Assembly: GCF_000002425.4 (NCBI RefSeq) | Contig: NC_037261.1 | Span: 2,723,426 to 2,787,425, forward strand | Reading direction: 5' to 3' | Source: Physcomitrium patens | Taxonomy: Eukaryota; Streptophyta; Bryopsida; Funariales; Funariaceae | DNA length: 64,000 nt | Shown: one piece after another, positions 15,181 to 63,054 of the stretch | Numbering within the stretch: the stretch's first letter is position 1 | How the letters are laid out: every line of letters starts with the position of its first letter | Program-made: the position numbers and the translations under genes | Notes under the pieces: generated by a model | Database searches by the model: none | The model's input: the letters and a program-made list of their open reading frames with translations, nothing else | What the model was told of the DNA's origin: nothing

Positions 15181-16314
15181 TTACGACAGGACTGCAGTGT
15201 TCCTTGAGTAGCCGCCGTCAATGGCCGGGCCTTCGGGCCGCAAGTCGCCATGCGGGAGGACTAGAATACTCTGAAACTGAGGAGATGAACCAGATGCTTC
15301 CGCGCTTCCAGTGGAGCTCGAGTCAGGCGTCGGTTCTTCGTCACGCGACGGATTTGAGGTCGCAATGGCAGGCGCTGTTGGAGTTCGCTTGTGCCCGCAA
15401 TGGACTCCCGATTTCTGACCCTGGGTATCGCTTGTTGGGAGTTTCTCACTCCCTTGCATGGGAGACCTGCTCTGAGTAGAGGGGTTAGACGCACAAGCCG
15501 ACGATGGTTGCGCATCCCGGGGGGTGCTGTCAATTGGCGACGATAGTTGTGCATACCCGGGGGTGCTGTCAACTGCCGACGATGGTTGTGCATTCCCTGG
15601 GGTGCTGTCAATTGGCGACGATGGTTGTGCATTTCCGGGGGTGCTGTCAATTGGCGACGATAGTTGTGCATTCCCTGGGGTGCTGTCAACTGGCGAAGAC
15701 GGTTGTGGATTCCCGGGGGTGCGGTCAACTGGCGATGATGGTTGTGCATTCCCGGGGGTGCTCTCAACTGGCGACGATGGTTGTGCATTCCCTGGGGTGC
15801 TGTCAACTGACGACGATGGTTGTGCATTCCCGGGGGTGCTGTCAACTGGCGACGATGGTTGTACATTCGCAGGGGTGCTGCCAATTGGCGACGATAGGTT
15901 TGCGTTCGCGGGGGTGCTCTCAACTGGCGACGATAGTTGTGCAATTCCAGGGGTGCTATCAATTGGCGACGATGGTTGTGCATTCCCAGGTGTGCTATCA
16001 ATTGGCGATGATGGATGTGCATTCGCGGGGGTGCTGCCAATTGGCGACGAAGGTTGTGCATTCGCGGGGGTGCTGCCAATTGGTGACGAAGGTTGTGCAT
16101 TGGCGGGGGTGCTCTCAACAGACGTCGATTTTGCCCAAAGCCCAGTTGTGGACGGAATGATATGGGCGGGAGTGCCATGGGGAATGGCATTGACCGGTGT
16201 GACGAATCTTGTGGCGAGAATTCGACCTTCGGCCGCACGGTGAAGTGAGACCATAACACCCAAGAGCAACCAAAAGCTGAGCAATTTGGCGGGCGTTGCA
16301 GCAGTTCGCTCCAT
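15181..16314 (-). CDS. Secreted Pro/Ser/Thr-rich tandem-repeat protein
   Basis: I chose the second in-frame Met (16314) because it places a good signal peptide at the N-terminus: a short basic start, then a hydrophobic core LLSFWLLLGVMVSL, then HRAAEGR. The result is 377 residues. After about 80 residues come sixteen tandem 13-residue repeats of the form STPGNAQPSSPVD (39 bp period, roughly 15500-16120). A basic then acidic Ser-rich tail follows and ends GGYSRNTAVLS. The repeated TP and SP dipeptides resemble hydroxyproline/arabinogalactan-type cell-wall glycoproteins, so an extracellular role is likely by inference. No catalytic domain is present. Because the 39-bp unit lacks stops in several frames, other frames are open too; only this one has a signal peptide. 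The tail could also be a processed secreted peptide, but it matches no family I know. An intron inside it is not excluded. Confidence 0.6.
   Translation of the reverse strand: MERTAATPAKLLSFWLLLGVMVSLHRAAEGRILATRFVTPVNAIPHGTPAHIIPSTTGLWAKSTSVESTPANAQPSSPIGSTPANAQPSSPIGSTPANAHPSSPIDSTPGNAQPSSPIDSTPGIAQLSSPVESTPANANLSSPIGSTPANVQPSSPVDSTPGNAQPSSSVDSTPGNAQPSSPVESTPGNAQPSSPVDRTPGNPQPSSPVDSTPGNAQLSSPIDSTPGNAQPSSPIDSTPGNAQPSSAVDSTPGYAQLSSPIDSTPRDAQPSSACASNPSTQSRSPMQGSEKLPTSDTQGQKSGVHCGHKRTPTAPAIATSNPSRDEEPTPDSSSTGSAEASGSSPQFQSILVLPHGDLRPEGPAIDGGYSRNTAVLS
15500..16130. repeat. 39-bp tandem repeat array (about 16 units)
   Basis: The plus-strand unit reads roughly GGTGCTGTCAACTGGCGACG followed by ATGGTTGTGCATTCCCGGG. 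Units differ by scattered substitutions, many at third positions of the minus-strand reading frame (for example gacgatggttg versus gatgatggttg). It is the coding minisatellite of the secreted repeat protein. Confidence 0.9.
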
Positions 16315-16320
16315 TGCGAT

Positions 16321-17010
16321 TACCTCCACAAATTTCAGAGATACACAACATGAGCACAAGCTTTCACGGGCTACCTCTGAATTATTTGAAGCGAGGATTA
16401 CCTAATCAATTAGACAGAAGTGCAGAATTTACACTCACCAGAAGCCAATGAAGGGCCTCGACGCCTAATGATGAGAAAATGAAGAAAGAACGTCCAATGC
16501 TACCTCCGCAAATTTCAGAGATTCATAATATGAGCTCGGGCCTACACCAGCTACCATCGAATTATGGAAAGCAAGTGAAATATACAGTTCAACCGACATC
16601 GGAAACAATATGGACACGATAAACCGGCCATGTCACCATGGTTGCAACCGTTTGACCAATTACTCATGCACTCGCCACTCTGATGGTGAAAAATGTGATC
16701 CAATCGAATGATTTGTGATATACACAGCAAGGACTTAACTTTAATTGAAAAAATGAATGATCCGGAGCTAGACCGGTGTTGCACACTGGCATTTATTTCT
16801 ACCGTTTGAAGAGAGTACAGGCTGCGAAGCCTCTAGATTTTAAGCAATTCAGGTCGACGCCGTACATCACCTGAGCTGTTCACAAGCGAAGACAGTGACG
16901 GAGACCAAATCAGGAGAAAGTAAGTGCAGAATCTGTACTCACCAGAAGCCGATGAAGGGCCTCAGCGACTAGTGAAGAGCAAATGTGGGGAATAGCGTCC
17001 AATGCCAGAG
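16321..17010 (-). promoter_or_regulatory. Duplicated upstream/5' leader segment of the repeat-protein gene
   Basis: A segment just upstream of the start codon occurs twice. Copy 1 (16321-16500) begins tacctccacaaatttcagag and ends cgtccaatgc. Copy 2 begins at 16501 with tacctccgcaaatttcagag, then is split by about 330 bp of other sequence, and resumes at about 16921 (agtgcagaatctgtactcac) to about 17010. Both copies contain, on the minus strand, CTTCTG/GTGAGT, a good splice donor, so they look like a duplicated 5' untranslated exon with its intron. A run of 15 C residues lies further upstream at 17074-17088. Confidence 0.5.
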
Positions 17011-23686: not shown

Positions 23687-26600
23687 TCATCTTCCTTGAA
23701 TGCTTTCCCCGGAATAGATGGAAATCATAGAGTCACTGGCTCCCGCAGCCAGCAACACGTTATACGAGTGGAAGTGCAACGAGCTAACTGGGCCGATTCT
23801 TTGGCCCAAGAAGCTGTTGTGGTAACGGACAGAACTCAGCAGTTCCCCACTTGAACTGAAGGTTTTTATCAACTGCTTGCCTGATCCTGTGGCAATCACG
23901 TCAGCGTACCGATGAACAGCTACGGAGGTGAGATTTCCCTTGTGCGCATCTACTTCAAGATAAGGTGCGCTCTTTCTCAAGTCAAGAAACTTAAGATCAC
24001 CAACCTGTGATGCTGAGATTATCTGCAAAACAAACGAACTTGAGTCAAGGGACAAGCAGGAACATAAGTACAAAAAATACAAAAAAAACAGCTGATTGAA
24101 GTATAAGCTATAGACAGTCGTAGCATTAACCTCGTTGTTGCCACCTGCACAGTATGGAATGAGAAATTTAATAACCAAATAGAATCTCCACAGAATACCC
24201 TTCAAGAAATAGTGAAGAATGACCTTAGTGAAATCTGATCCAGGTTGGAAGTCGAGACCAACAACTTTCGTGGTGTGTGGTTTCATTGCACACACAAGCC
24301 TGCGTACACGTGAATGAGGGATTAGTGGCAAATAAAACAGTGGTATGGAACTAAATTTTCAACTTGGGCAAAAATGAATCACTTAAAGTAGAAATTTGGG
24401 GTACGCATTCCATTCAACTAAAACTGAAGCGCTTACATCTCGCGCGATCGTAGGTCATAAATCTTGACAGAGCCATCTCCAGATCCCGTAATCACATGTG
24501 CATGATGCGTCTGACAAGCAGCCTGACATGCAACCAGCTGTAAACTTAGTCTGCATACAAATAAAAAAATCGGGAAGGGACAGTCATCTTCGGCATAGAA
24601 AAAGCACAAATGAAAAAATTCCAGAATTCCCGATCATACTCGGACAGCCACTTACATTACTAGAGTATGCTGTATGCAAACTTTTCACTTTCCTACAAAG
24701 TACGAGGGTCACATCCAACTCACCAGAGCAGAAACATAGCTATCTGAGGGAGAAGGTATCCTAGAGACTAGCTGCTCACGATCAAGATCCCAAGCCATGA
24801 TGAAGGAAATTTGACCTGATGCATACTGGAACACGCATAACACAACACAGACGATGGAGTAAAGGAATTGCCACTTTGATATGAATCAAGTTACTAAAGC
24901 AATCGTAACACTATCTGGCATAGAAGTGGGTTTTTGAACAATAAGTTCCAAAATAAAATAATGAAGACTCTGACTCATACCGAACTCATCCATCAAGACT
25001 CCATTTTTGCCCCTTATCTTCACCAGGACATAGAAAGTTAAGATAGGAATGGAGACACAAGTCATACCGAGCAAGCCAAAATACTACCAAAAGGAATGAT
25101 TATGGAAGAGTTGGTGCGAAGAATTACCAGGTAACCTGTCATTTGTTGCCAATCTACCACAGCACTGACACCTCGGGCACCAGGTCTATGTCCTTGCACA
25201 GCCTGCCATGATGTTGCCAGGCGATGCTTATCCTTCTGTGTGTAGTCTTTCCACACCCTCACACTTCCATCGCCTGCAATAAAACGCAGTTGAAGGATGT
25301 AAAATCTTAGCACATCCAGGATGACGCTGAAAATTTATATCTCAACACTGAAAATCAAAAACATAAACGAAAACTGCATTCAAAAAAAAGAGAAGCACTA
25401 TCGAGAAAAATTAAGTGGGAACGTGTTATAAATAAAAAAGAACAGCTCATACATATTCCTCAATTATTACAGTGAAAGATGGATGTTAGTAGCAAAGTCA
25501 CTCGTTAGTGTCTACAACTAAAAAATTACTAAAAATCACAAGGAGTAAATGATCCAAAAGCAGCAGTAAACAATGCACCTGCTTAAAAAATCATAATTGA
25601 ACCAAAAAACAACAAATAACTTACTTGAACCAACAAGTAGAAGGCTATCATCCAACTCATTCAGCAAGCAAAGCTTGGAAATCCCTTTGTCAGGGTTAAT
25701 ATGATTCTCAAAGGTGTTAATAACTTCATTTGCATCATAATCCCATATCCTGCAAAACCATGCCCAAAATGGCCCCATCACAAAGGTACACCAATCAACT
25801 GGAGTTGAGCCCTAGACATGGAAAACATATTCAAAGCTCATGAGCAATGAGATCGCTATTTATGCACTGCTGAAAAAGTATTCGAACTTAATTTATACCA
25901 TTCAGTCAGGCCAAGCACTGCAATTAAGATCGGAGCAGAAGAATCGTCAAAAACGACTTATCTTCATGGACCCCATCTCCAGCACACAGTTGAATTTAAT
26001 AAGGAGACATAAAGCAATTCTTCACATTGAAATCACTACATAAATTAACGCCACAAAAGTAGAAAACAGTACCTGATAGTCTCGTTCTCATCTGCACTAC
26101 AGACCAAGGGTTTGAATGGATGCAGAAGCACTGCTTTAGTTCCGACATCGGATTGAGTATCCAAACTGCCAATCTGATCACTCACTTTACTCACACCTGC
26201 TCCAAATGTGACAAACCTCAACCAGCGTAAAAATACAAATTTAACTTCCACTATCTGTATTAACACGAAAACTGGGTTCTACAGCAATTTAGACTACAGA
26301 GAAAATATGATAAGACTAGATAAAACGCAATATAAAGGAGCTGAATTATTAATGTTCAAGGATAAAAATTTGGTCACACGCACATTTGACCCTCTGTAAA
26401 CGAAAAGAAACGTTCATAACGTGCTAAGTTACTCACTTGAATGTTGACATCTTTCGATCCCTTTCAAAGCCAGTTTTTCTCTCATTTCCCGCCGAGCTAT
26501 AATCTCCTCTTCATCGTCGTGCGAGGGTTCCAACAATGGTCGAGAAAAATGTCCACAACTCCACTTATAAATTGTTGACTCTGGCAACAAAGTGGCGATT

Positions 26601-29600
26601 GAAGCTGCATCCGGACTCACCGCTGAGAGCCCGGAAGTAGTCATCCCAGCTGCATCAGCTAGACCAGATGTCAGTGTGCTAAGAATTGGAGACGAGGGAT
26701 AAGTGACAATATCACCAGCTATTCGTACTGCAGGTCTGGAAGCATCCCAAGCTCCAGCCAATGCTGCAGAAATATCCATAGATGCCACACGTCTAAGGCT
26801 GCTGGTAGAACCTGCAAGAAATGCCGGTCGAGTAGGTGGGCTGGGAGGAGGTGTTGTGATACGCCACGTGCTAGCAAGGGTACCTATCCAAAGTAACCAC
26901 GAAAAAACATAAAAATGTGTTCTATCTGAAGGCCAGGTTATGAGGCAGAAAACAGCAATTTTTTCTCGAAAACAACAAACCTATCAAGGCAAAAGATGTT
27001 CTAAAAGTTGCTAACCTGAAGAAGAAGCCACCCAAGATGTAGACCTATGCAATACCCCAGCCATAGCCGGGGTAGGAGGAAGTGCGGATACAGATGGATT
27101 TCGCGGATAACCTACAACACCACCACCAGCCCTCGACGATACCATAACTTGAGCAGAATCAGCTCCACCTATCCTCAAAACCTTTCGACCCAGACTAGCC
27201 ACACGAGGAAAAGAATCTCTAGCCAATGCATACGCAGCCATTATGCACTGCACATACATGTTGCATTCTTCAGATCGTTTCCATTGTCTGCTGCCCCCGT
27301 TGCTGGAAGCATTACCACCAGATTCTCCAAGTACCGGATTGTCAGACAAAGGAGAGTTTCCAGAAGAACCTGAAAACCAATCCACAATGAAGAGTTAAGT
27401 CACACTCACAAACAAAAAAGAGAAACACAAACACACACACAAAAAACTACCAAGCACCACAGAATTCATATATCTTCCAGATTCACATAACAGTTTGACC
27501 ATCGTGGTGCCAGTAAAATATATCACATGTAATCCTTACTACCAAACTCCAATCATTAACACACTACAGAATTGTTGTCAAAGTTCCATGGCATGACCAG
27601 TACCTGGAGAGCCTGACAAAGACCCGCTACTCCGGACAATACGCATAACCGAACGGTAGGGCGTCCCTCCATCCAGAGTTTGAAGCCCCTGATCAGAATC
27701 TGATTGTAGACCAGCATAAGTGAATTGCGAAGAGTAAGGATACCCTGGATTTCTGTAGCCTGTTCCGTAAGGCACAACAGCTGAGTGGGATGGCGGTTTC
27801 AAATAAGCTGCAGCAGCCTGACGAAACATCCTATTGTGGCTGAATGCAAGCCGTGCTAGAGCTAAAATGAACACACAGCCCAACAACGTTGTGTATTAGT
27901 AACATATGTAATCAACAGGAGCCAAAAAGATCAACTGAATAATATTAAGAGGATTGCCACACAAAATGAAGACAAGTAATTGAGCATAAGACTTCGGTGT
28001 TATGAGATTCTACAGCTCATACCCTAATCTCAAGAACCAAGAACCCATTATTTCATGAACTTCAAGCCCACACAGAGGTCCTGAGAAAATGATGGACAAC
28101 TGGACCAGAAATCAAGAAGATCAAGTCCTGACACGAATGTGGAGGATAAGCATCATTCAAAAATTCAAGAGATTCATACGATGCAGCTAGAGATAGAACT
28201 CTAAGAAACATAACCTAGCTGACACTTCAAGAACTAACGGATACGTAACACTCGATGTATTGAGGAAGTAACGAGTGTCTCAAATCTTTACTGCGCAATA
28301 CATGTGTAGATGCTTTGAACCTCAGATGACACAAAAATGATTGTCTCACCTACAGCAAGCTCGGCTCGTACAAGTGGACTTCCATCCCACAACACCGTTA
28401 GTAGGAGATTTGCAATTCTTTGTTCCGCAGCTGACGTGTCTTCATCCATATCATTGTCAGCTCCTTCTGAAGAAGTTCCGTCCGCTCGAACTTTAAGAAG
28501 AGTCCCTAGCGCAAACACGGCCGCAGCACGAACCTGAAAGAAATAACGGCACAAGATCTTCATAAGTCCATTCACATCCACAATCCTAGAAGGTACTCGA
28601 CCAGTTGTGCAGTATCCTGGGCAGGAATGCATGTCGCACTCGAGGAAAGAAAAGGCACTATCTTTGCTTTGTATTGAAATAATCTGCAAGAAGCTCCATA
28701 ATAAAACAAGGAACGAACCGCAGGGAAGTGACCGCTTCACAGATCGAGCCATTTCCCTTCAAAACTTATTTGGTTAACGGCTGTCAGCGCTCACCTCAGG
28801 CTGCGGCTCAGAAAGAACCTTCCCAAGAATTGCTGGTGCATCATCATGCAATGCAATGGATACTCCCTCTACAACTCCATCCCAAAGCTTCCCCAGACAC
28901 AGACAGAGCCACTGCAGAAGTTGGGGTTCAGTCTGTCCATCTAGAGCATTTGGTGCGGCTTGTATATGTGAGAGACAGATGCCGATTAGGCCAGCTTGTA
29001 TACAAGCGTGCTGGCCCTGCTGGTGGCCGTCAACAATAACTGCCAGTACATATGCAGCCATGGCCCTTTGTTCCGCGTGAATGTCAGGATTCTCCAGAAA
29101 GTGGATGAAGTACGAGTGACCACCATCTTTGACAAGATCAACTTGACATGACTGCATTCCACATCATTTTTAAACCTCAGAAGCGTGTATCCTCCAAAGA
29201 AATCTCCAGTCCACAAAAGCAGACTTACCCTGTGGAAAGCTCAATACCCAGATCGTTGGGACTATTGACATACTACCGTCGCTTGCTAAGTAAACCTACC
29301 ATTGCAATGTAGGGATTCAAACATGCGAAAGCAACATAAGGATTACAAAGGCACAAGGCACGACACTGATAAGCAGCCATTAGGATATTTTATTGATGCA
29401 AACGGGAAGAACTTCATGTCATGCAAGACCGAAAGGAAATTATCATAAATCGAAAAGAGTATTTAAGCAAAAATAATAATAAATAAATAAATAAATAAAT
29501 AAAAACTCAGAATGAGGATGTTACCTTGTCAAGAGCTAAAATCTTCGTCCAGATAAACACAAGAATCTGCCGCAAATCAGTAGCTGTTGTTTGCAGCAGC

Positions 29601-43450: not shown

Positions 43451-46400
43451 AGGCATGCCACAAACGTGCCCCATCTCAAGCAAGAATCTCACACAGCATC
43501 TACAACCCAGTTCATACATTTTCCCCCATTTGTTGTATTTTTAATATGTATCAAAGGAAACCACCTGACCATTGTTAGAGCATCACTTTCAATAATATTT
43601 TTTTTTGTTCTCATCAGGCAAGTTTCTCATGCTCATTACCACCAAAACAAAAAAAAATCTTTTCTGCGCAAGTTGTGCACTTTAAAGTCACTCGTGAACT
43701 TTCCCAAATGGGGCCAAGGCATCAACATGATCCTTTATTTACCGACATAGGAATCTGACACAAAGAGGGAGGTGAGCGGCAAGTCCTAATTCCAAGACAG
43801 GGAAAGTGTGAACACGTCGAATGACAAGGTAGGGCCCATTTCGAGGTCCTGAGAATGAGTTTTAGTCATCCCGTGGAGAGCAAGGGCAGTGCCGGGCCGG
43901 GTCGTACACGGCCTGGCACAGCCCGGCCCAGCTGGTATGGTGTGCCAGCAGGGCAAGGATCCAAGGAGCCAGCTGGGACAGAACGTGGGGTCCAGAATGA
44001 CGTTGCAATCGAGTCTGACCAATGGGATGCACATCTCGCACACGTCCAGATCACTGGAGCCAGTCATTCAGTAACGGCAATGAATCCTCAGCAAATTCCT
44101 ACCCCTCGTCCTTATTGTGGCCAACGCTCCCATAGTTCCCCGGTTTGCCAATCATGGGGAACAAAGTTCTAGATTGGGGAACACCGTCACTTTTGTGGGG
44201 AACGAACGAAGCTTCTGCTGACGTGGTACCCGCGATCCCCGTGGTGGACCGATTCCCACCGCCGCACGTTGGAATTAGGGTTTTGGCTTTTCCACGTCCC
44301 GTGCTTTGCTTCCGAAAAAGCATATCCTGAAACACGGCCCGTGAATTGAGATTTGTCTTTGCAAATTGAGTAGCATATTAAATTTATTTGAAAAATAATG
44401 AAAGAATTCTACTTTCATTTTAATTATTTAACGCTGAGGTTGAGTTGGTAGTTTGTTTGAGGTGAAACAAAATCTGATCGTGAAAATCTGATCTTTATCG
44501 TCAATAGTGGGTGTATTGGGTAGCCTGAATTTGTCGTGGTTGGATTAGTCCACATTATTTTGCATATTTTATTTTCTTCACCTATTTGTACATTGTTATT
44601 TATATGACAAAAAAATCTTAGAGGATTTGCAGATTAACTCTACTGAATATTTCTGTATTATTTATATGTAATAATGCCTGTTACAAAATAAAATAACATT
44701 CATCAAATAATTGTTGAATAGATGCACATATATTATATCTAAGAAAAATTAAATGTTTGTCACTAATATTATTTTGTTGCTATGAATTACTTCTTTTTAT
44801 TGGTTTTATCAACCAAAGATAGCTTACATCTTCATATTAAATAATATTTAAAGTAATGTCTGCTGTTTGGATTTGAAAGTTTCAAATTATAATTTTTTTT
44901 TGTTGCAAAGTCTACATATGTGACGATTCCAAGTTTTAAAAAATCTAACAATAATCACATCAAAAACAAATTCAAACAGAGTGATATAAATTTCAGCTTT
45001 CTTCAAGAATAAGATTACGTAGCCTCAACAATGTACAATATTTTATATGTTGTATATATTTATACTTTTTATCTTCTTTTTTCATTATTTTATAAAAGTT
45101 ACTACGTGAGTTTTAAACATATACTTACACTTGTATTTCTAATACAAAAAGTGAACACAAAATCCAAATTATGTGATGAGCAAAAGCATAGTATTTATGA
45201 TGATTTAAAAAAAAATTAAAGTCCTTGTCTACATATCATTTAATATTATTTAATAATAATAACTGTTATATTTTTTCAAAAGACATATATCTGGGTTGTA
45301 AAAAAAAGCATAAAGGTTACTAATAATGAAATAAATAGCACAATGATGTCAAAATGATAAAGACCTTTAAACTATGTCCTAGATCCACGCTCTTATTAAG
45401 GTACTCTACTTCCACACAAATACACACATTTTTACTTTTTTGAAAGTTGTTGTCTGTAAGAATGGCAGAAAACCCAGAGGTCTTGCTCTAGACTCAGCCC
45501 ATAATGTATGATCTAGATATCAAATACTATTTCGTCACATTGTCCTGTAAATTCAATTGGAGGGAGTGTGGATTATAGGCGTAGCTCAGTTTCAATCCCT
45601 TCACCGAAACATGAGCTTGAATCAAAAAGTTAAAAGAAGAGAACAGGCACTCAAAATCCCACCAAATTCCATTGCAATCCAACTTTGCTACCTCTCCCCT
45701 GTTCATTCATTTTTTGATATTATAATGAAAAGTTTTAGGTCCTCCTCTATATTTACTCACAGTGTACTACCTGGTTTTCACAACTGTGTAGCAGTACAAT
45801 TTACAGTGTCTGAGAGTGCATGTATTGATGAAGTACGTTCAATGCCTCCTCTGCCCCCATGAGGAGGATGTGGCTGGATCTAGCACCACAGAATTTTCAA
45901 AGTTTTCCTTTTTCTTATTATTTAAAATTGGGGGATCAGTTGACACGATTTGGGGCAAAATCCATCTACACTATTTCATCACAAAGGTTAATGTTGGCTC
46001 AAACCCTAAAACTGCCATATCATGAATAAGTTACCAGGTGGCTGCTCATTTGCTTGTCATAATAGGATTTATTTTGTTGTGGACAACCCATTAACCAAAT
46101 TGAGTTGTGAAAAGCAGGTTTTCTACGATGCTCTTTTGCTGTTGGTGTGCAATTGATTCTGTGGGGGGTGAGAGAAAAATTTAAGCTTGACTATGAAGCT
46201 GTTTCAAATTTGTGGAGGATCATTGATTGGGTGTGCGTGAATAAATATGTCAAACATTATCACAAAATTTTGTAATTTTTTCTACAGTTAGTGGTGCATG
46301 GCTTAAGTCATCATTTGAATTCGTTTGATAAAAATAAAGTCATAGTATACAGGTTTATCTTTTGCTTAAAATGTTTACCGCATGTGTGTGACAAACAATG

Positions 46401-46790
46401 AAGAAACATTAATGGACACTTTCTACAGGTGCTAGCAAGTGCAAGTGATTAGATGGATGAATAATTCATTGTATTCATCGTTGAAGACGATTGACACAAG
46501 CTTTGTGTTGGATGGGGTGAATGAAACTACTAGTTCCATGATCTATATATACTGGTTGTAACCTTTTGCACGTAAAGTATGACCCTGCGCATATCAAACG
46601 CATTGAATTATCACCAACTTATTTATTATACTTTTTGAACTAAACCATCAACTAAAAGACCCCCCAAATGGAAAATATCAACTAGAGTTGTCAGAAATTG
46701 TCTCCACAGTGATAGATTAACTACAATTTACAGCAACTGTGACAGTCACAAATTTCCCATTGCTGTGTCAGACCACGGTCTTACACATCA
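43451..46790. other. Intergenic region with a GC-rich island at 43.78-44.34 kb
   Basis: The island at 43.78-44.34 kb has C/G-rich inverted motifs (ccgggccgggtcg, cacggcctgg, cagcccggcccagctgg). Openings on both strands, longest 105 codons, share no domain and look compositional. The rest is AT-rich. A promoter-like CpG-rich segment is possible but I cannot tie it to a gene. Confidence 0.35.
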
Positions 46791-48214
46791 GTACCTTTCA
46801 CCGTGTAACTGAACCAGTCCGAGGTGGTTATAGCAATCCCGCGGGTACAGGTCTGCAGTGAAACCGTCGATTAGGGTTTCGGCTCCGTTGTGATTCACCG
46901 CAGCCACAATCGGGAATTAGGGCGGCACGCCGAGCGCGGATTTCTTCGTAGGGTTTCTCATCTTTTTGAAACCCTCCCTGTTGTGCATGCCTTCGATCGG
47001 GATATGGTCTCAATCGCTTACCCCGCTTGTGGATTTCCGACCACTTAACACCTTCGCCAGCAACGTTGCTCCTTCCTGTACACTCTGTTGATTGCGTCTT
47101 GCGGGCTTCTAGGTCGAAAGCCTCTCTGAAGATTCTTCCCGAATTTCACTCCCCCGATGCTGATGCTAATGACTGTTATTGTGAAGGTTTACTGAATCTG
47201 TCAACGAGCAACCTGTACAAGTTTTCTCTGCACTGGCAATTTGGCGGTGTCTCGGCCGAGGGAGTTGGACATCCGGGCATGTCGAAACAACGGCGAGGAT
47301 TTTCTGAATCGTGCTACGGTCGAATATTTTGTCAGTGTGATTGTCGTTTCTGACGGTGCAAGGATGCCGCAGTTCTTCCTATTTCCGTATCAATAGACTC
47401 ATTCAAGATCTAGTCTATGTTGATAAGCGTGATTGTGGTATCTTCAGAGGCTTTAACATCGGGTTCTTGTTCTTTCGTCTTGATTACGCTACCTTCCCAC
47501 GACTCGGTCTCCACGATAGACTGGCATAAGAGTGGTATGGCTGCTCACTCTTGTGTTTTATTCTTTCCTGTGTTGTGTATATGGCTTTTGGTCTTCGATT
47601 AGTTCAGTTTTGATTTTTTCTGCCCATGAGTAATCTGCATGAATCGATGAAGGCGCTAGGGGAATCTTCCGATGAAGAGCGGGTATCTGCGCAGCGCAGC
47701 GCAACGCTTAGACTTCGTGTGAGTTTTTTGCGATGCCTTTGTTGCTATGGTTTGGGTTGCAATGGACAGCGATGTAGCACTGTTATGATATTTTTCTGCT
47801 GGTGAGGAAGGTCTTCATTTTGAACACAACTTCTCCGACTGTTTATTTTGATTTTCTTTGGTTGATCAGTCAACCCATTCCGTGTGAAGTCATTGTCACT
47901 GTCTGGGGACAAGAGTAGTATGTCCGCTTAGGTTACTCCTTGCGCTTATACTTGTGGTAGGGCCTGTATGAGTGAGTCAGACAGGGTGCCCCACGTTGAG
48001 TTACCTGGCACGACATTCAACTAATAATTTGTGCTTTCTTTGGTTACGATTACTTCCATACTTGTGCGGCACAAGTTCTAGCAAGGCATCAGAGGTTCTA
48101 AGTTCTTCCGTGCATGGCTTCCAGCTTGTGTAGGTTGGTTTTGCATGTGACATGGAAATATATTCCTTTCTTGGATTCTGGGGAGCGGATCCAGTTGAAA
48201 GTCATGAAAATAAT

Positions 48215-48459
48215 ATGTTGCAAATATTTCCAGTGATGTGAACTATAACCTGGTAACCAAGTTGGTCTAGAGTGGTGACGGACACTCCCTTTCTTCCTTC
48301 TTTCTCACCATCCTGTCTCGATGTCTTCTAATCAATCGTCTCTGTCCTCCTCTCTCTCACACCTCGTCCACTGCAGCTACGTATGCAGTTTGAGGCAATG
48401 TCCGTCGTTAAGCCACCGCTGATGCTTTAGCTATGAGAGCTGAGGATATATTGCAACAT
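48215..48459 (+). ncRNA. Structured RNA, box C/D-like, copy 1
   Basis: The 5' end ATGTTGCAAATATTTCC pairs with the 3' end GGATATATTGCAACAT to close a terminal stem. Just inside are GTGATGT (48233-48239, like snoRNA box C) and CTGA (48440-48443, like box D). Internally, CTAGAGTGGTGACGGACACT (48267-48286) pairs with TGTCCGTC and CCA...CTTTAG on the 3' side (48399-48430), and ACTGCA/TGCAGT (48370-48389) forms a small hairpin. The loop is CU-rich. At about 245 nt it is long for a guide snoRNA. I do not recognise it as U3, RNase P/MRP or telomerase RNA. The strand is inferred from the C/D order. Confidence 0.5.
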
Positions 48460-49074
48460 GGACTGTCGCTCGAAAATGGAAGCATTGGTAATGTGGTCGT
48501 GGTTTTAAGGCACACGGCTTACTAAGTTCTGAAGAGAGTCGTTTTGTGCGAGAGTGAGGTTCGATGACTGGAAATATTACAGGAATAATTCAGTCGAAGA
48601 ACGGTCGCTTTGTGTACTGTTCGTGTTTTCATCTAACTTGTTCGCATGAGTCTGAGTCTCCTATTGGGAACTTACCGATTCATTTGTTCCTAGACAGGAC
48701 CGCATTCCTCATTTTCAAATTTATTGATGTATGAATGGAGAATTATTCGAGTAATATGATTAGTATTTGTGATTCATTTTGTGAATGCATGGCGGAAGCT
48801 TCATCGAAGGTCACTCTGAATTTCTTCATGTGTGTTTTCCTTTCAGTTATGATTGTAGCCTAGTGATAGTCCAGGTTGATTCTTTTCTTTGAATGGCCAG
48901 TTGATCATGCCCTGAGTTTACTGCATTCCACTGTTTTTAGTCCTGTTTGAATGCCAGACCTACTTATTAGGATTGGTTTGACGTTAAATCTTGTTCCTTA
49001 CGATTTGTAACGCTCGGGATACTGATGTATATCCAAATGTTTGTGAGAACTTTGGCGTCTCAAAAATGGACCTT

Positions 49075-49298
49075 GGTGCACTGTCCAGTGATGTTAATAA
49101 CGTACTGTCGATCATGTTGATCTAGAGTGGTGGCGGATACTCCCTTTCTGATGTCTTTTTTCATCCCTCTGTCTCAATCTCTCTTACTACCCTATCCGTA
49201 TTCTTTCTCTACTGCACGACCCTTTGCAGTGTGAGGTAGTATCTGCCATTTAACCACCGCTGATGCTGTAGCTATGAGAGCTGAGGACAATTTGCACC
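49075..49298 (+). ncRNA. Structured RNA, box C/D-like, copy 2
   Basis: This is the second copy, starting 860 bp downstream in the same orientation. The terminal stem GGTGCACTGTCC/GGACAATTTGCACC differs in sequence from copy 1 but still pairs. Box C-like GTGATGT is at 49088-49094 and box D-like CTGA at 49281-49284. The internal stem changed from GACGGACACT to GGCGGATACT on one side and from TGTCCGTC to AGTATCTGCC on the other, so pairing is kept. The hairpin ACTGC/GCAGT is kept (49211-49230). The 3' block CCACCGCTGATGCT...TAGCTATGAGAGCTGAGGA is almost identical in both copies. Confidence 0.5.
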
Positions 49299-51000
49299 TA
49301 TGAGACTTGCTGTTTTGTCTGCACGTCTTGGTTACCTTTCTGGATGACGGTCACTGTTTGCCCATGAACCTTGGTTTACCAACATGAAATTAGTTACAAA
49401 GCACGTGGATTTTAAGTTCTGGCACATTCTGCCAAGTCACGTTAATGCGACGTTAGCCTCTGATAATGCTTGGGTGAAACAGAAGTATCTGCCCTTCTGA
49501 TTTCAACAGTTACCAAAACATCAGTGTTAGTAACACTGCAGTTCTGTAATTGTTACACATTGTTGTGTCCTGTCGGGTCCTACATGTTCCACAATTTCAA
49601 CAGAGTGCCAAGTTCTTGTTTGAGACTGATATTTGATAGTTCGTGGTGCTCTGTATGAGCTTTGCTTTAGCGCACAAGCTTTCACTATGTAACCCACTTC
49701 TGTTGGAATATATGGCAACTGTTGACAGGGCCTGGTGTTTTTTATCTGCGACTAAATGTAATCCTATTTCTTGCATGCCACTTCTACATCTTGGGTCAAA
49801 GCTCATCGCAGCCCATGTATCATCTCCTGTTTTTTTCTCTCGCAACCATTTTTTGTCCACTGGTTTTTCGATTGCGACTGCTGCTGTTATATGCTAGAAC
49901 CAGCTCCTGGTCAATTTAGGTACCAATTCTGACTGTTCTTTCATTCACTTAGAAGAGAAACATTTCCTCGAACTCTCGCACAGATCTCATATTTCATTGG
50001 CAGGTAACGAGGTGGTTGCACTTACAATTTGACCGTTAGAGCTGATTTTTTTCTACGACGTGTGCTGTTAATACTCTCGCTTGTTGCATCAATATGTTCT
50101 GTGCATTACCCCTGGTTTGGAGTATCTATTGCTTTGTATTGCCCTTTTGGTTTCTGTGATATGACATGAAGCAGACGAATTTCCTCATCACACGTGAGTT
50201 TGATGCACCTCATCTGAAAACGATATGCTGCGATGGACTGGTCTTTTTGCGCCACATTCAATGGCTAAGGATTTCATGCTTTCATTGGTGTTAGCATCAC
50301 AATATCTGTTAAAACACTGCTATCAACTTGTTGGAGTAAGGAGGAAAATGACGGTCCAATGCTGATAATAGCAGCTAACCAGAATTGTGAGGTGTGAGTG
50401 AATGAATGCGTACTTGCTTCATACAATATATCTGAGAAGCTGCAATTTTTTTTCTATGGAAGTTGCTCCCCTGTAGGGTTTGTCAGTTTCACACCGTACA
50501 CGAGAAAAAAAAATCATGACAGTTACCAACCAAATTCGGTTTGGATCATCGTCACTCACCTAGCATAAGATAAAGATGTGGATGAATTATGCTCTGGATT
50601 GTAATGAATGATTCAGTAGCAGCAAATTACATTGCTGTTCTGAAGAGGTATATTCACTATCGGTGCAACTTGTGCGCGGGTTCCCAGTTTAATTATCCAT
50701 CGAGCTGTGATACTGTTGTGTGTGGAAGTTCATAGCATGTATTGTACTCCTGACAAATACACGTTGTTTCCTTGTGTATCAGAGCTGAAGTTTGGAGAAA
50801 CCTCTCATGGAGACAAACAAAAGTGCGAAACAAAAGTAAACTGGTTGAATTTGTTTGTCCATTTACCCTTTTACTGCTTGCAATTCCAAAACCCAAACAA
50901 GTGCAACATGTGCATTTGTACACGTATTGATCTGCGCAAGGTCAACCGACTGCTACCCTGGACATCAAGTCATGTAAGTACTTGCTGGTATGAATCTGAA

Positions 51001-54000
51001 CCTGGTTATACTGATCTTAGATCATCCACGTTTAACTGAATGATACAAAAAAATCGTATATGCCTTTGCTATACACATTACATAACCACGTAAAGAAACA
51101 GCGTTTCCACAAGAAACCAGATAGTACATAAGTAAAGTCTCACGACTGAAATGAACATCACATGCTCGTAACTCGCGCAATATTACATCAACATCTACTC
51201 TAAGCCCTGAAATCAAGCTGCCGAAACAACAATATGAATTGAGCACTACATCACTCTGTTTAGGAATCTGACTTACGAACAATAGAAAAGCAAGCCATTT
51301 AAAAAAGTTTACAACCTTTTATTGTCCCGCACTTTACACAGCTGAAATAAAATTCAAAACAAAAACGAACTAATCCTACGGAAATATCCGAAAGAGGGCG
51401 GGGTGAGTTCCTTTGGTACACGTCACCGTCCACGTCAGCCTGCTAGCTGGCCCGTTAATTCCCATGCCTACTATTTTGACTCGGTGCGTCTGGACGCCCC
51501 ACGATCAAAGGACCCCACTCGTCATCCCCCCGGTCATGGCCCAAAAAAGCAAACCGTGGGTTCCACCTATTGACACGACAGATGCGGCGTGTTTCCATGG
51601 AATCCTCCGAATCCACTCCTCATGTTCCCTTTAAAACTGCCTGGTGTAGAGTTTTCACTTTGGATATAAATTTTTAAAACCCGCACTATTTTTTTATCAT
51701 TTTTTAATGGTCCTAGTTTCTTGATTGGGTGGCGAAATTCTAGTCTCTTTTTCAACAAAATGAGTAGGAAAAGCAAATAAAGTGGGGGAAGGGAAGTGTA
51801 ATGTAGCAAATTTCATTATGCAATTTAGTGAAGAAAAGGAGTGTTTGCATGCTCGTGGTGTTGACTTGTTAGAAGATGTTTGTGCATAAGACAACATGAA
51901 ACATGGACATGATATTGAATCCAGGGAAAAAAGTTTTGAAAAGTTGTGTAGAATGCTGTTGTCATTTCAACTTACATAGTTCATGTGGTGTGCATATGAG
52001 TTAATTACCTATATTTGTCAAAGCATGTAATACTCTTTACAATATATATATATATATATATATATATACTAAATTTCACTTCTATTTTATTAGTTTATAT
52101 AAAACTGTTCACATATGTGTTGATTTGATTTGATTTGATTATTTTAAAATTGCATAGTTAATAATCCAAGAGCACAAGCCTTTGTAAAATATTTATACAC
52201 ACTAAGAATATATATATATATACATATATATACCTTGTAGTCCCTAAGGATAATGCAAGATGTCTTTTTATACACATATTAAAAAGTTAACCATCCTTTT
52301 GAGATAGAGTTGAAATGTGAATCCACAATAAAACATAAAAGGAGAAAAGTAAAAATAAAAAAGGAAAACTAAGTTGTATGATGAGACAATTTGCTTAATT
52401 ATACTTTATTTTAAAAATTATTTACAATAGTACAGATACATCAGAATTCCATATTCATTAATGCGTTTTAATAAAGGTGACATGCATAAAATTAAAAATA
52501 AAGAAAACCTTAATGTTGAACCTAATGGTTATGAAAAACTTGATGTAGAATAACATTTAGGCATATAAATTGAAAAATCCAATAAATACATTGAAACACA
52601 AATGCAAAAATAAATAAATAAATAAATAATCATTATACTAATGCAATTATGAAATCAGTTAGTGCACACAATATTTTAAATCAGAACTGGCTGATGAAAC
52701 GTAAAGATTACAATACTTATACATGAAAAAACCATTTAAATTCTTTAATTTAACTTTGAAATAGATCATATTAAGTCAATTATATAATTTCAGATCCGTC
52801 TACAATGTCTTCCATTTCAAAAGTTTCTGACTTGATTTCTGTTTTTTCTTTTTTCTTTCTTTTTTTTTTTTTTTTTTTTTTTTTTTTGTGTGTTTCTTTT
52901 AAGTAGTTCGTTGGGCTTTTAACTATGTAAAAGACAGCAGACATTTGACATAAATATAAGACAGTAGACATTCAGTAAATCATTCTTTGATAAAATAATT
53001 CAAATGTTAAAAATGGTTGTCAAATGTTGCCGTAATATAAATTAATTAGCGACACAGTACCATTCAAATTTCTAAAAATAGCAACAAAAATAGAACACCG
53101 GATGTGTATTTTACAAAAAGATGCATTTAGAAATAAACAAAGTAAAATAGGCAACTGTATTATTTTCAACTTGAAGAATATTTTGTTGCAGAAAAAATGA
53201 TATAATGGGTATATATTTCTAGATCTTCGAAGAAATTTTCTGTCTCCAGTATTATTTATAGATTATCTACGTTCTTTCCAGATGCATTTGAGAATATATA
53301 AATGAATAAATATAGCTGAGGAGGTAGACTTTCCTGAGTAGAATATTGTGTGTTTATATAAAAAGTAAAAATACATTTCAAAACATATCATTTTTCAGAA
53401 ATCCACAATTTTCATGTATTGGTAATTTGAAAGAAAACATCGTAGATAGAAAAAATACTGAGTATTACATGTATGATGCCTCTGAAATGTGATGACACTG
53501 GCAATATTGTAGTTAACAGTTATATTCAGCATTTAAAAACATTTTTTTTAAAATTAAAATTGTTAACAACCATTTTATTGATGACATTATCTCAAAGAGG
53601 TCATTTTATTTATTGGTGAATAACAGACCCTATTACTCAATAATATATAGGAAACACTAATTTTATGAATAATATATACGAAACACTAATTTCACAAATT
53701 CTGATTGGTCAAAATACTTCTATTTAACAAAATGACTTTAATATATTTAATTTTTTATTGATCTTGTTTGTTCAGAAGTGCCAAAACAATTACACTGTAA
53801 CACATTTATTCATTATACGACATGCTTTATTCAATCCTTTGATTGTTGCTTGTTACTGCAAAAAGCTGATATATTTATAATTTAAGGGTAATTAGTTTTT
53901 TTGGTATTATCTTACAGATGTATTTTTCCAGGACTTACATTCTTTCTCTACGTACAATACTTCAAATAAATTTTTATCGTCGTGAACCTTTTTAATTACT

Positions 54001-56850: not shown

Positions 56851-58557
56851 AACGGACATCTTTGCAAGGCTTTCAATCGCGATGAAGCGATTGAAGGGGG
56901 GTTGTTGTGCGTTATCTCATGTGCACAACTGGGCAAATGTCCTACTTTGTGAACCAAATGAAACTAGGTGGTAGAGTCGGCCCTTGGAATGACCGCCACA
57001 CTGTGTAAACCCCCTCTCTATTAATAACACAACTCCACATGCAACGGAGTGTCATTCCACAAGCAAACAACCTATACCGCTTCTGAAGGCTCCAGCTAGA
57101 GTTGAGTTTACACCCTACTTGTGGTTTTTGCACAAGAAACACCCCATTCAACGGCATGTCGATGAAAACGTGCATGGAGATCACTGCAGCATCTGTCTGA
57201 GACACATCGACGAGCGCCGAATGCTCGCGTGGAGCAGAGCAGAGAGGGTACCACACATCCCACTTCACCACCCCTAGAGTCATCCATTAACCGGTGACAC
57301 CAAAAAGAACGAGGGGGCGACAGTGAAAATGGGAAGAAAAGAACAAAAGTTTGAGTATCTCTCTAATGCCGAATATCTAATCGGGGAGTCGCAGCTGGAC
57401 TCTGCAGAGTTCCGCTCGATGGAGTCTGGGCGCTCACGCAGGCCCCACCATTGGGTAAAAGCGCAGCAGTGGGGTCCATGTCCATGTGGGTGAGGATCTA
57501 TATTCTGGCAAGGTGCAAGTTCTTCCTGGCGGAGGCTTTCGGGAGGCGTGGCATCAGCACAACGCTGGAGTTGCTCGCACTGGAACAGCCCAACGCCATC
57601 GCTAGATTGTGTTACGAGCGAGCCAAGTAAGCGGAGAGGGGTAGGAGAGAGAGAGAGGGGACTAACTTGCCGTGTACATGATCGATCTGAGCTCGACGAC
57701 TTGGGGATCGTGGGGGTATTGGGTGATCGGTGATCGGGTCCTGCGCCGGAGAGACGATCGGTGTGCGGCCGCATCGCTAGAGTGGGTGCTGTGCAAGTGA
57801 TTCTGTGCGGCATGACATCTTGGTGATGATGGCCCGAGGGTTCTGTTGAGAAGTTGGAGGTAGAGTGTTGTTCAGGGACGCGGGTGGGGGTGAGGCTGGA
57901 GATCATCGCAGCTTTCGGGGTGGAGACCGGAGGAATATGCGAAGTAGCGGTTTTGGTGGGTTTGCGATCGAGGTAGGTGGCGCTATGCATGCGCGACACT
58001 CACTTCCCGTTGCACTGAGACGATGTGCTTTGACACGATGAAACCTTCGTTTCTAGTTCTGGAGTTGATCGATCGCAACCGACAAAGCTGGTTGACTGGT
58101 ACGGGGTCCTGGAAGGGGTTGCAGCGGGGTGAGCAGCAAGTGGTTGGGGAAGTTTGGGTCTTAGGTTAGTCGGAGTTCGGGATCTTGAGATGTTGTGTGA
58201 GGAGGTAGCCCGTCGAGAGATTCGGCGTTTTCGATTGACGGTGAGTTGGGCTAGGGCGTGCAGACGCAAGGGCGTCACTTGATACTGGCCACACTACAGC
58301 CTGTGTCTGCGTTTGGCATTTAGTCCGATTATGGGTCTTGTCTGTGAGAAAGTCGAATCGCTGTTTGAAGTTTGGAGTGCATTCGACCTTGTGGAGGGTA
58401 GACAGATGGCAATGAACCGAAGGGAATGGATACTTTTGGTACGACCACAGAAGACAGGGTGTGAATCGGTAGTGCATTGGATGTCGCCGGGTGATTTAAG
58501 AGAATAATTTGGAAGATAGGACGTTGAGCGGAGATCTTCGGACAATCGCAGATTGGG
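56851..58557 (+). promoter_or_regulatory. Promoter and long 5' leader of the hybrid histidine kinase gene
   Basis: A GC-rich stretch runs directly up to the kinase start codon, in contrast to the AT-rich DNA before 56.8 kb. It has short plus-strand upstream openings (for example at 57548 and 58313) and a 239-codon minus-strand opening that I take as compositional, because it is low-complexity Ser/Pro/His without a domain. The transcription start is not resolved. Confidence 0.4.
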
Positions 58558-61500
58558 ATGCTGGATCCGCACCCGAAGAAAAATGAAGAGGAGGAGCAGC
58601 AGTGTTCGGAGACGGGTTTTGAGAAATATGTGCTTATCGTCAAGGAAGACGTAGCGTGTCCCACGAAGATGAATCCTCCGTCGCACGGGAGGGGCTCGGT
58701 AGGGGTAAACGTCGAAGATCGTGCACCGGCAAGAAGCAACAGATCTTGGTACGAAACCCACGCCAGAGGTCTCTTCCAGTCCTCAAGGGCATTCTTTGAA
58801 TTCTGCATTGACACAATTGTGCAAATATGGAGAGACCGGCCTCGGGACGCCAGGGATATCTACCGCTGTGTTCGACGCAATGTCCTTACCATTTTGCTGG
58901 TTCTGTTGAGCGGGATCATCACCTGGGAGAGCTCTGTGGAAAGTCTTCAAGCCCAAGTCCATGTGTCCATCGTGTTTCCGTTTTATCTACCGCATGCTGT
59001 CGCGCTCGCTTTAGCCTCGGTCTGGAAGCACGGAATCCTGCCAGGGAGTACATTAGGCCTTTACGCAGCGAGGATGTACATGACATGGCGCGGGTCAGGG
59101 TTGACGAGCGTCAACACGACGATCATGGTGCTCGTTGCGATTCTCGCAGCGATGCAGAGCCATGTTGGGGCGCATTACCTCCGCAAGTGTTTGTGTACTG
59201 GCCAGGAGAAGGAAATTCCCACCATAGATTCAGTGACGGATGCGGTCTGGTACCTCCTCGTTGTCACCCTGACATCCTTTGTTTTCTGCTCCATCATCTC
59301 GGTGTGTATCGCTCTTACCCCCATGGTCATTTGGGCGGAATACTGGAGCTTCTGGGGGACGTGGTGGTTGGGTGTACTGGCGGCGATGATCACCGTTACG
59401 CCACTAATCATCCATTTGTGGGCGTGGAAATGTTGCCCTTCTTTCAAGCGGCCTGCGAAGCTGCTCGAGTGTGCGGTGACTGGTATGGTGACCGTCGGGA
59501 TTTTGATCACCATCTTCTTCTTCAACGTTCAGTTCTTCCGGCCATTACCGTATTTTTGTTTTCCTCTCATCACGTTTACGGCCTTCCGGTTTAACCGCGT
59601 AGGATGGGCATTTACGGTTTTTGTTGTTGCGTTTTCGTGCGCCACGGGGAGTATTCGCAAGCGTGGGGCGATGTACGCCATGACGGGACGACCCTCACCT
59701 TCTGCCACAAGTTTCATTCTTCAGGTAAAGCCGAGGGCTTCGTTTCTCACAACGGCATGCTTTCAAGGATTTAGGGCATGCAGTTTGCTTTCTTGATTTT
59801 TTTTTTTAAATTTTAAGCTATGCATCTGAGAGACGTTGTTTTCATGCATTATGCAGATCCAGCTGTTCAGCATTGTAATGGGTGTGGTAAGCATCACACT
59901 TGCTGCGGCAGTGCGGGAGAAGAAGATGCTGACCTGGACCCTTCATCACATGAACGTAGAACTCGAGAACAAGGTGGACAGGAGGACACTTGAGCTCCGC
60001 AAAGCAAATGAAGAGCTTCAAACCTCACAGAAAAGGGCGGAAATGGCGAGCCATGCAAAGTCCGATTTCCTAGCCAATATGAGTCACGAGATTCGGACGC
60101 CGATCCATGGAATTCTAGGGCTGATTGCGTTGCTTCTGGAGTCTGAGCTTACTGTCGACCAGAAAGAGAGTCTTGCATCAGTAAAAGAATGTGCCGATCT
60201 TTTGCTTCACATCATCAACAGCGTTCTCGACCTTGCGAAAATCGAGGCTGGTCGTTTGGAGGTCGAGAGAGTTTCGTTTAATATACGTAAAATGGTGTCT
60301 AGTACATTTCGGATGCTGCAAGCTAGAGCTCAAGAGCGTGGTTTGAAGCTGTTTTGGGAAGTAGACAGGAATGTACCGCATTCGCTTGTTGGAGACGTCG
60401 GCAAGCTCCAACAATGCTTGTTGAACTTAGGTTGGGAATCATTCTTCATCAGTCTGTCTCGTGTTTACATGTTTACGTTTCTCTCTTACTTTTTCTTCAT
60501 TTATTATTCGATCTTCTGAATGATTTTGTTCTTCGGTGCCTTTGATTTCAATTGAAAGCTAATCTATGTTTGAAGGTGCTGTTATTCCTTACTATAGCAA
60601 TTTCTGGTTTTCGATTGCAGTCGGTAACGCACTGAAGTTCACCCACGAAGGATCTGTGTCTGTACACGTCCGAGTGGCTTCCGACAATCTGAAGGCTTCA
60701 CTGATGAAAGCAGGCCACAGTTTCACTGCACCTGACGGTAAGAATTCAAAGTTAACGCATCTCAAGCTGCAAAGCATTCTGTATAATCTATTTGATCTTG
60801 AACCAAACAATGAAAATTAGTATAGTAATAAAATAAAGAAGCCGTCTTATCTTACAATCCTGCATGGTTGTCAACCAGGAATCAGCAACAGAATGGGTGT
60901 AGCGACAGCTGACAAGCTTTCTGCTGACAGATCCACCTTGGTTCATGCTCCTGAGAACGTGCTCATTCACTTCGAGGTCTGTGACACTGGAATAGGAATC
61001 AACCCGGATAAATTGAAGGACATGTTCAAGCCCTTCACTCAAGCCGATGCGTCCACTTCTCGCCTCTATGGTGGTACTGGTCTGGGCCTCTGTATAGTTC
61101 ATAGGTTCGTGGAGCTTTTAGGTGGCACAATCTGGGTTGAAAGTGAATTGGGGAAGGGGAGTACCTTCCAGTTTTGCTTGCCCCTATCCCTCAACAATCC
61201 CATTCCTAAAGAGGGCTCAGCGGAAGCATCTCCAAAAGTGAGATCTCCAGGTTTGTTTGCAATAACCATGATTCTAATTCCATGATGCTGTATTATTTAT
61301 ATATACTGCAGACATGGTCAGAGTTATTACGTGACAGTACATGCGTTTCCTTTTTCATTTAGTCCTCTTTTGCGCTAAAATTTGATAGTTTGTATCAAAC
61401 TTATTGCGCGCCAGGTATGTTTACTGAGACATTTTTACTTTTGCAGGGAGGGTAGCTAGTCATAAATCCTGGACCCTCATGGGGGGTTTGATGTTCAACC

Positions 61501-63054
61501 ACCCTGGTTCAGACTATAGTATGGGAGCAGTGCATCCCGATTCTGAACCTCCGAGTCGCACCTCGAAGAATGTGTCTAGAGTGCAATCTGCGAATGACCT
61601 AGCAATGTGGAAGGGAGCAGACAGCACTGTGATTTCTATAGAGGATCTTTCGATGTTAAGCGATGCTATTTCTAAACAAAGAGAAAACTCGTACTCTCTA
61701 CACAACGGGACCTGTAGATCACCCTGTGTTCAAGGATTAACGCAGATAGATGGTGATGGTCCTCGGCCACGGGGAGCTTTAGACTCAGACTACGATGCAT
61801 ACAAAGAATCACAAAATGCGAAGAATCACTTCGATCACGGAAACTCAAGAGCACACCTCATTCAGGTCCACGAGGTTCCAAACTGGGACTGTAAAGAGAA
61901 TGACAAAGCCCTGAGCGATGAAGTCATTGCACCGGTTCCCAAAATTGCTCAAACCAAAGGCGACACGCTGGAGGTTCTCTCCTTGCAGAGTTTGGATCTG
62001 CTGCCTTTGAAAACCACGAGACCTCTTGACGGCTTCGAAATGGTTGCTCTATATGAAGACCCCTCCAAGCTCAAATCACCACTTGGAGACACTCAAGCAA
62101 TGGACACATTCCCATGCAGATCACAACAGAATCCACCAGAAGGTGCATCTACAACACCTTCAGACCTTAGTAGGGAATCCTCGACAGAGATGGAGAAATT
62201 ACTAGACAGCAAACTTCATCTGAAGATCCTCTTGGCGGAAGACAATGCCATAAACCAGAAAGTTGCGAGCCGGCAGCTTGAAAAACACGGCCATATTGTG
62301 AGGATTGTTGGTGATGGACAGCAAGCTCTAGACGTCATTTGTGCTCAGCATGACGAGTTTGACCTCGTCCTCATGGACGTGCAGGTACGCAGTTGCTTTC
62401 TATTTGAACGGTGATGTCTTCAGCATGAGCGAAAATATTCTTGCATAGTGTGGGCTGTGAAGCACCTGAGTGTCAGTGCTTTGCGTAACATTAAACCTCA
62501 AACACATGGTTTCCAGATATTAGTCGGCCATGGTTTCACAATCATCAGATGCTCATTGTGGCCTCGATTTTGTTTATGTGAGGTTCAACATGGTCTCATT
62601 GGGTCAGTTTTTCTTAAGAAGTAGACGTCGTTTTGGTTTGTTACGAAACATAGCAAGATGCTATTGAAGAATGAGGAGACATCTTCTGATATACAACCTG
62701 AGCATTACATGTAGTGCGTAAGATTTCTGGACAGGTTCCAGTTTCCGCAGTTGTTGAGATTCACCCAACTCAGTTTGTGCCTGCTTTTTGAGATTGTACA
62801 ACTGATGAAGGGGAGATGTGCTGCAGATGCCAATAATGGATGGATTATGTGCAACCGAGAAAATTCGCAAAGCGGAGCTGGAGTGTGGCTGGTCAAGGGT
62901 GCCCATTTTAGGATTAACAGCGCATGCCATTCAAGGATACCAAGACACTTGCTTAACTCATGGTATGGATGGCTACCTTGGGAAGCCTTTCGACATTCAG
63001 CAGCTACTGAAAACCATAGGCCATATATTACCCCGAGACAAGTTGGTTCAATAG
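58558..63054 (+). CDS. MASE1-domain hybrid sensor histidine kinase
   Basis: This is a membrane sensor kinase that should autophosphorylate on His and pass phosphate to its own receiver Asp, then to a His-phosphotransfer protein. Six phase-consistent exons give 1131 residues: 58558-59724, 59857-60430, 60621-60737, 60879-61250, 61447-62384, 62827-63054. Residues about 105-389 form a multi-pass MASE1 domain ([20 protein letters not shown] and [11 protein letters not shown] are the diagnostic parts). A coiled-coil linker ([20 protein letters not shown]) follows. The DHp domain has the H-box SHEIRTP with His466. The ATPase domain has the N-box LLNLVGNALKF (Asn583), [14 protein letters not shown] and GGTGLGL. 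A domain-free linker of about 255 residues precedes the receiver (about 1003-1131) with AEDN, LMDVQMP (Asp1054), T in LTAH and K in GKPF. All key residues are present. It has no CHASE, PAS, GAF or ethylene-binding domain, so it is not a cytokinin or ethylene receptor type. Start choice: first ATG after an in-frame stop; Met at 58672 is an alternative. Confidence 0.93.

Follow-up and report, generated by a model that had tools for sequence, protein, structure and literature searches.

Two related candidate box C/D guide RNAs of Physcomitrium patens and their predicted pairing with C34 of unspliced elongator tRNA-Met

A 64,000-nucleotide stretch of the Physcomitrium patens genome (contig C9, 2723426–2787425; hereafter, the window) carries two related plus-strand segments, at 48217–48457 (copy 1) and 49075–49298 (copy 2), which probably encode guide RNAs of the box C/D class akin to SNORD97 and SCARNA97. 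Judged from their sequence and computed pairing, the guides very likely direct 2′-O-methylation of C34 in elongator tRNA-Met, and we lean toward the intron-containing pre-tRNA as their preferred substrate. The wider reading for plant Cm34 guides, in which the tRNA intron forms part of the snoRNA target, Cm34 precedes splicing, and the paralogous guides co-evolve with the intron variants, is offered as a tentative proposal that may well turn out to be wrong.

A search of the 470-Mb, 101-contig assembly with copy 1, in which only the best candidates were scored and very common words were skipped, returned two places: the query itself and copy 2 (E 6.5e-17, 71% identity). The copies lie about 855 bp apart within one stretch and differ by one base from CCACC to beyond box D, while their middle parts diverge. 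An earlier reading of this DNA from its letters alone (the sequence-only reading) had described two related segments that share GTGATGT near the 5′ end and a 3′ block ending in CTGA; the segments were recovered at the coordinates given above, with GTGATGT at 48233 and 49088 and D boxes ending at 48443 and 49284. It had also raised a match to a transposon family, for which the assembly search gave copy 2 as the only place other than the query. That the copies are fragments of a repeat or transposon is a practically negligible prospect: although relatives of the 16-nt guide word TAGCTATGAAAGCTGA occur at 618 places with up to two mismatches versus 90 for a reversed control, similarity to the copies extends over at most about 20–30 nt at the 10 such places examined, 9 of which share a context of their own. 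In these nine loci the resemblance to the guide word covers about 20 nt within a repeated context containing TTTTAGCTATGAAAGCTGAAAA..., which, judged by eye, is probably coding sequence of a retroelement. Without mismatches, the 16-nt word of guide plus box D is confined to the two copies in this assembly.

In 5′-to-3′ order, each copy has a terminal stem and box C, then a variable stretch, the hexamer TCTAGA, and an internal helix; a pyrimidine-rich tract and a small hairpin precede the helix's 3′ strand, after which come a C′-like CTGATG and a 13-nt guide. A single base separates the guide from box D (CTGA), and the terminal stem's 3′ arm closes the unit. All elements of both copies lie on the plus strand. 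In copy 1 the 5′ arm of the terminal stem (48217–48231) pairs within 48444–48457 and encloses box C GTGATGT (48233–48239) and box D (48440–48443), and in copy 2 the corresponding arm (49075–49086) pairs within 49285–49298 around box C (49088–49094) and box D (49281–49284). Both copies thus show the arrangement that defines box C/D RNAs, an RUGAUGA C box and a CUGA D box joined by a terminal stem, with one departure in the C box, whose final base is U. This supports the earlier suggestion of a C/D particle that combines a terminal stem with a structured arm. The hexamer TCTAGA, identical in both copies (48266–48271 and 49121–49126), may represent a non-canonical D′ region ahead of the internal helix, the 5′ strand of which (48272–48286) pairs with 48397–48406 and 48413–48416 in copy 1 and (49127–49141) with 49238–49247 and 49254–49257 in copy 2; the CTGATG elements at 48419–48424 and 49260–49265 would serve as C′ boxes. 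In copy 1, folding places the small hairpin ACTGCA...TGCAGT at 48370–48389. The longest stretches with at least 80% C/T measure 92 nt in copy 1 (48283–48374, 80% C/T) and 86 nt in copy 2 (49140–49225, 80% C/T), which bears out the CU-rich middle noticed before; of all 80-nt windows between 46.8 and 51 kb, 57 of 4120 reach 75% pyrimidine, and all 57 fall inside the copies. The C/D scan, which covered 46001–51500, gave as a third candidate a further pair of C and D boxes between the copies (ATGATTA ... CTGA, 5-bp stem, 48756–48915, plus strand) that may be due to chance. Copy 1 moreover contains at 48388–48399 (plus strand) the sense word GTTTGAGGCAAT, which we take to be a word of plant 18S rRNA and which is not kept in copy 2.

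Comparison of the two copies also bears on their structure. In the internal stem, 6 of 10 pairs are invariant, 2 are changed on both sides, 1 is changed on one side, and 1 is unpaired in copy 1, and the paired changes that the sequence-only reading had seen there are thus real. Its description of the terminal stem as completely different in sequence was overstated: 9 of 11 paired columns are identical, another shows a compensatory change (U-A to G-C), and in the last one copy 1 has a U-U mismatch, the difference between the copies lying in the length and the unpaired part. Over the whole 31-pair structure, 60 of 62 cells of the two-copy alignment are standard pairs, and three pairs (two in the internal helix, one in the terminal stem) have changed on both sides. 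Six slid controls yielded 0, 0, 0, 0, 0, and 1 such changes, yet 56 of 500 shuffles equal the observed number. Because of these shuffles and because only two sequences are compared, the covariation is suggestive only and no proof of structure. The folding z-scores are −1.49 for copy 1, which 15 of 200 shuffles equal or better, and −2.65 for copy 2, which 2 of 200 do. The same features argue about decay. An imperfect box C that lacks the final A and the inner mismatch in the terminal stem of copy 1 would fit the idea that one or both are decayed, unexpressed copies of a guide RNA; the near-identity from CCACC to beyond box D next to a diverging middle, and the two compensatory pairs among the helix changes, speak against such decay, which we regard as improbable.

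Read as a D-box guide, the stretch upstream of box D, TTTAGCTATGAGA in copy 1 (48426–48438) and TGTAGCTATGAGA in copy 2 (49267–49279), is complementary to UCUCAUAGCU, which we take to be the anticodon and intron start of plant elongator tRNA-Met genes. Plant elongator tRNA-Met genes carry an intron. A search of the same assembly with a 14-base word gave 17 places: 5 are not tRNAs, and the other 12 are tRNA-Met genes in which a 10-nt intron follows A37; the word ends in GC, so that any genes with other intron starts would be missed. Four intron variants occur in the 12 genes: GCTACGAGAA in six, and GCTACGAGGA, GCTGAGAGGA, and GCCAAGAGAA in two each. The first two begin with GCTACG, GCTGAGAGGA with GCTGAG, and GCCAAGAGAA with GCCAAG. 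The exons are alike except for one base, GGTTAGC in place of GGCTAGC, in the two GCTGAGAGGA genes. ARAGORN, with introns allowed, identified four of these genes as tRNA-Met(CAT) and gave a shifted tRNA-Ser solution at the other 8, each with a 10-nt intron, and an Rfam scan called a tRNA in all five of these loci that were submitted. On contigs C1, C4, and C9 the genes occur as near neighbors on opposite strands whose introns are identical (for example, C9:3562528 and 3564106), a pattern that resembles inverted duplication, and contig C6 holds five genes spread over both strands.

Counting back from box D, the fifth base (−5) of either copy lies opposite C34, which is the D+5 register that SNORD97 and SCARNA97 use for C34 of elongator tRNA-Met, here found with target genes from the same assembly. 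Counted from guide base −2, as base −1 is mismatched, the guide of copy 1 forms 13 contiguous pairs with GCTGAGAGGA genes, 11 with GCTACGAGAA and GCTACGAGGA genes, and 9 with GCCAAGAGAA genes, and that of copy 2 forms 13 with GCTACGAGAA and GCTACGAGGA, 11 with GCTGAGAGGA, and 9 with GCCAAGAGAA; among the 13 pairs, 12 (copy 2) and 11 (copy 1) are Watson–Crick pairs. With the spliced tRNA either copy forms 7 contiguous pairs, compared with these 9 to 13 across the exon–intron junction. The in-register energies follow the same order: −18.8 kcal/mol for copy 2 and −16.8 kcal/mol for copy 1 with the best intron partner, −14.9 and −15.2 kcal/mol, respectively, with the other set of GCT introns, −12.3 kcal/mol with GCCAAG, and −6.3 kcal/mol with the spliced tRNA. 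As free duplexes, copy 2 reaches −21.5 with both GCTACG introns, −18.1 with GCTGAG, −15.3 with GCCAAG, and −10.4 kcal/mol with the spliced tRNA, and copy 1 reaches −19.1 with each of the three GCT introns, −16.5 with GCCAAG, and −14.2 kcal/mol with the spliced tRNA, in the last case by two blocks of 7 pairs around an asymmetric loop. The free-duplex energies of both copies favor the pre-tRNA over the spliced tRNA; copy 1 favors its own intron only in contiguous pairing, as its free-duplex energy is the same for all GCT introns.

These numbers also weigh on a rival explanation that accepts the guide and C34 but lets the RNP act on the mature tRNA through the 7-bp core UAUGAGA:UCUCAUA, with the intron match as an incidental or ancestral leftover. 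The core and the D+5 register are indeed present on the spliced tRNA, and copy 1 can add its second block of 7 pairs there. Moreover, intron positions 1 and 2 fit guide bases −9 and −10 in all 12 genes, a fit that is partly built in because the search word required GC. Intron position 3, which the word left free, nevertheless fits guide base −11 in 10 of the 12 genes, and guide bases −9 and −11 are both mismatched with the spliced tRNA. The in-register energy of −6.3 kcal/mol on the spliced tRNA, as against −14.9 to −18.8 kcal/mol with GCT introns and −12.3 kcal/mol with GCCAAGAGAA, points in the same direction, as does the fact that the sole base by which the guides differ faces a variable intron position. 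We consider action on the mature tRNA unlikely, though the most serious of the alternatives. In the preferred reading, with the pre-tRNA as substrate, that sole differing base, −13 (U in copy 1, G in copy 2), lies opposite the fifth intron base: an A in 4 of the 12 genes (GCTGA, GCCAA), fitting copy 1, and a C in 8 (GCTAC), fitting copy 2. Because the 3′ blocks of the copies differ only at this base, we propose that each copy may prefer one set of tRNA-Met genes; this is a single event and could be luck.

How readily such a pairing arises by chance was gauged in two ways. Among 20,000 shuffled guides, 13 for copy 1 and 4 for copy 2 pair as well anywhere on five tRNA sequences, C34 not being required, a test that is post hoc with respect to the choice of target. 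Of 351 22-mers adjacent to CTGA in the window, 7 form at least 10 pairs and 3 at least 11, the latter being both copies and one unrelated 22-mer with 12. A different target, with the copies acting as 18S cytidine-acetylation guides like snR4, snR45, and U13 or as methylation guides for rRNA or snRNA, appears very improbable. The bulk of the moss RNAs does form a helical, variable arm flanked by D′- and C′-like regions, as described for the likewise long C/D RNAs snR4 and snR45 in the portions of PMC5464676 cited here, which also report a conserved 5′ guide, complementary to 18S, ahead of box C. In the moss copies, however, the stretch before box C is the terminal stem and holds no conserved block of guide length, and because this guide is absent the snR4/snR45/U13 acetylation-guide family was rejected. 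The longest pairing of either D guide with a 912-nt partial 18S sequence is 10, includes 4 G-U pairs, and starts at −6. The putative D′ guide before TCTAGA pairs over at most 9 with the same 18S sequence and 7 with tRNA-Met, and because these pairings are short no second target is claimed. A scan of viral contigs found one contig with partial 18S and none with a 25S word; a tRNA-Met-like word occurs in 7 contigs, in none of which a tRNA gene lies at the word, and the guide word occurs in 9, which we read as chance. One genome-contig scan gave no match.

Both copies share what is probably a T-rich, non-coding host transcription unit at 46860–51300 (plus strand), the limits and promoter of which are putative. 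The longest stop-to-stop frame on its strand comprises 131 aa, and the two plus-strand frames above 110 aa (127 and 131 aa) have no Pfam match. Telobox-like words stand at 46871 (TTAGGGTTT) and 46949 (TAGGGTTT). Elsewhere in the window, open frames at 58528–62414 (plus strand) with matches to MASE1 (28.0 bits, cut-off 29.8), HisKA, and HATPase_c are probably exons of a sensor histidine kinase gene. Open frames at 23687–29163 (minus strand), one of which (23690–24358) has WD40/beta-propeller matches, appear RAPTOR-like by eye. A further frame at 15181–16401 (minus strand) contains many tandem STPGNAQPSSPID-like repeats and has no Pfam match, and the opposite strand also has long open frames there.

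Taken as a mechanism, the host transcript would be processed into two C/D RNAs, whose terminal stem and C and D boxes would assemble a standard C/D particle with fibrillarin. The RNP would open the anticodon–intron region of pre-tRNA-Met, and C34 would receive its 2′-O-methyl group at the position that the computed pairing assigns to it by the D+5 rule. The unspliced pre-tRNA is the likely substrate because the paired stretch spans U31 to A37 and continues into the intron start; the duplex would thereby cover the 5′ splice site. Since 9 to 13 pairs form with the unspliced and 7 with the spliced tRNA, methylation before splicing is suggested, and the RNP would release the tRNA to the splicing endonuclease after methylating C34. 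The pyrimidine-rich arm may, by analogy with human SCARNA97, serve as a Cajal-body address. If this is true, the intron of plant tRNA-Met genes gets a job, and a testable reason is offered for the retention of a short intron in plant elongator tRNA-Met genes. It would also name the likely target of a pair of guide RNAs outside every Rfam family, and a separately encoded eukaryotic snoRNA that bridges a pre-tRNA splice junction would, as far as the literature covered here shows, be without precedent. The open-licence literature, in the portions covered, offered no example of a guide pairing with a tRNA intron in plants.

Among known RNA families, Rfam gave no match at the gathering cut-off in the whole window; SNORD97 is presumably an Rfam family. 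With a threshold of E 10, the region 47700–49800 gave four weak, unrelated matches (DdR4 once, CRISPR-DR8 twice, TP73-AS1 once). Dictyostelium DdR4 (RF01572) aligns weakly from box C of copy 2, and identity with it was rejected, as its score of 21.5 bits (E 3.4) stays below the cut-off of 70 and is not a match; the literature on plant and Dictyostelium snoRNAs, as far as covered, held no counterpart.

The closest parallel is found in human cells, where, in the parts of the report cited here, SNORD97 and SCARNA97 are jointly responsible for Cm34 of elongator tRNA-Met, a mark that shields the tRNA from angiogenin and is abolished by a SNORD97/SCARNA97 double knockout (Vitali & Kiss 2019, PMC6601510). 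Like them, the moss RNAs are two paralogues per genome with a D-box guide whose fifth base faces C34. SCARNA97 is 216 nt long and contains a 93-nt pyrimidine-rich tract that is needed for its Cajal-body location (PMC6601510), and the moss copies have tracts of 92 and 86 nt. The length that had seemed unusual and the family that had not been recognized at first sight thus find an explanation, as length, pyrimidine-rich part, and guide fit the SNORD97/SCARNA97 kind as that report portrays it. There are also differences: in the cited parts the human pairing is described with the anticodon stem-loop region and with no mention of a tRNA intron, whereas the moss guide fits the exon–intron junction, and the human copies reside in introns of EIF4G2 and LARP4, whereas the moss copies share one apparently non-coding unit. 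The same source names one homologue candidate each in Arabidopsis and rape, which are plant RNAs with presumably the same target but single, while moss has two copies; the likeness is drawn from their description. C34 is also methylated by C/D guides in archaea, as cited in PMC6601510, and plant tRNA splicing is given as nuclear in the consulted parts of PMC11408192 and PMC4090602, the latter adding a contrary report. In the same portions of these two reviews of tRNA introns, intron-linked 2′-O-methylation is that of archaeal tRNA-Trp, whose guide is encoded inside the intron itself (PMC7994747, PMC11408192, PMC4090602), whereas the moss RNAs would be separate snoRNAs that pair across the junction. 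A further archaeal parallel is a box C/D RNA of Haloferax cited for the wobble position in elongator pre-tRNA-Met (Joardar et al. 2011); both archaeal guides share with the predicted moss guides the wobble C34 as target and the pre-tRNA as substrate.
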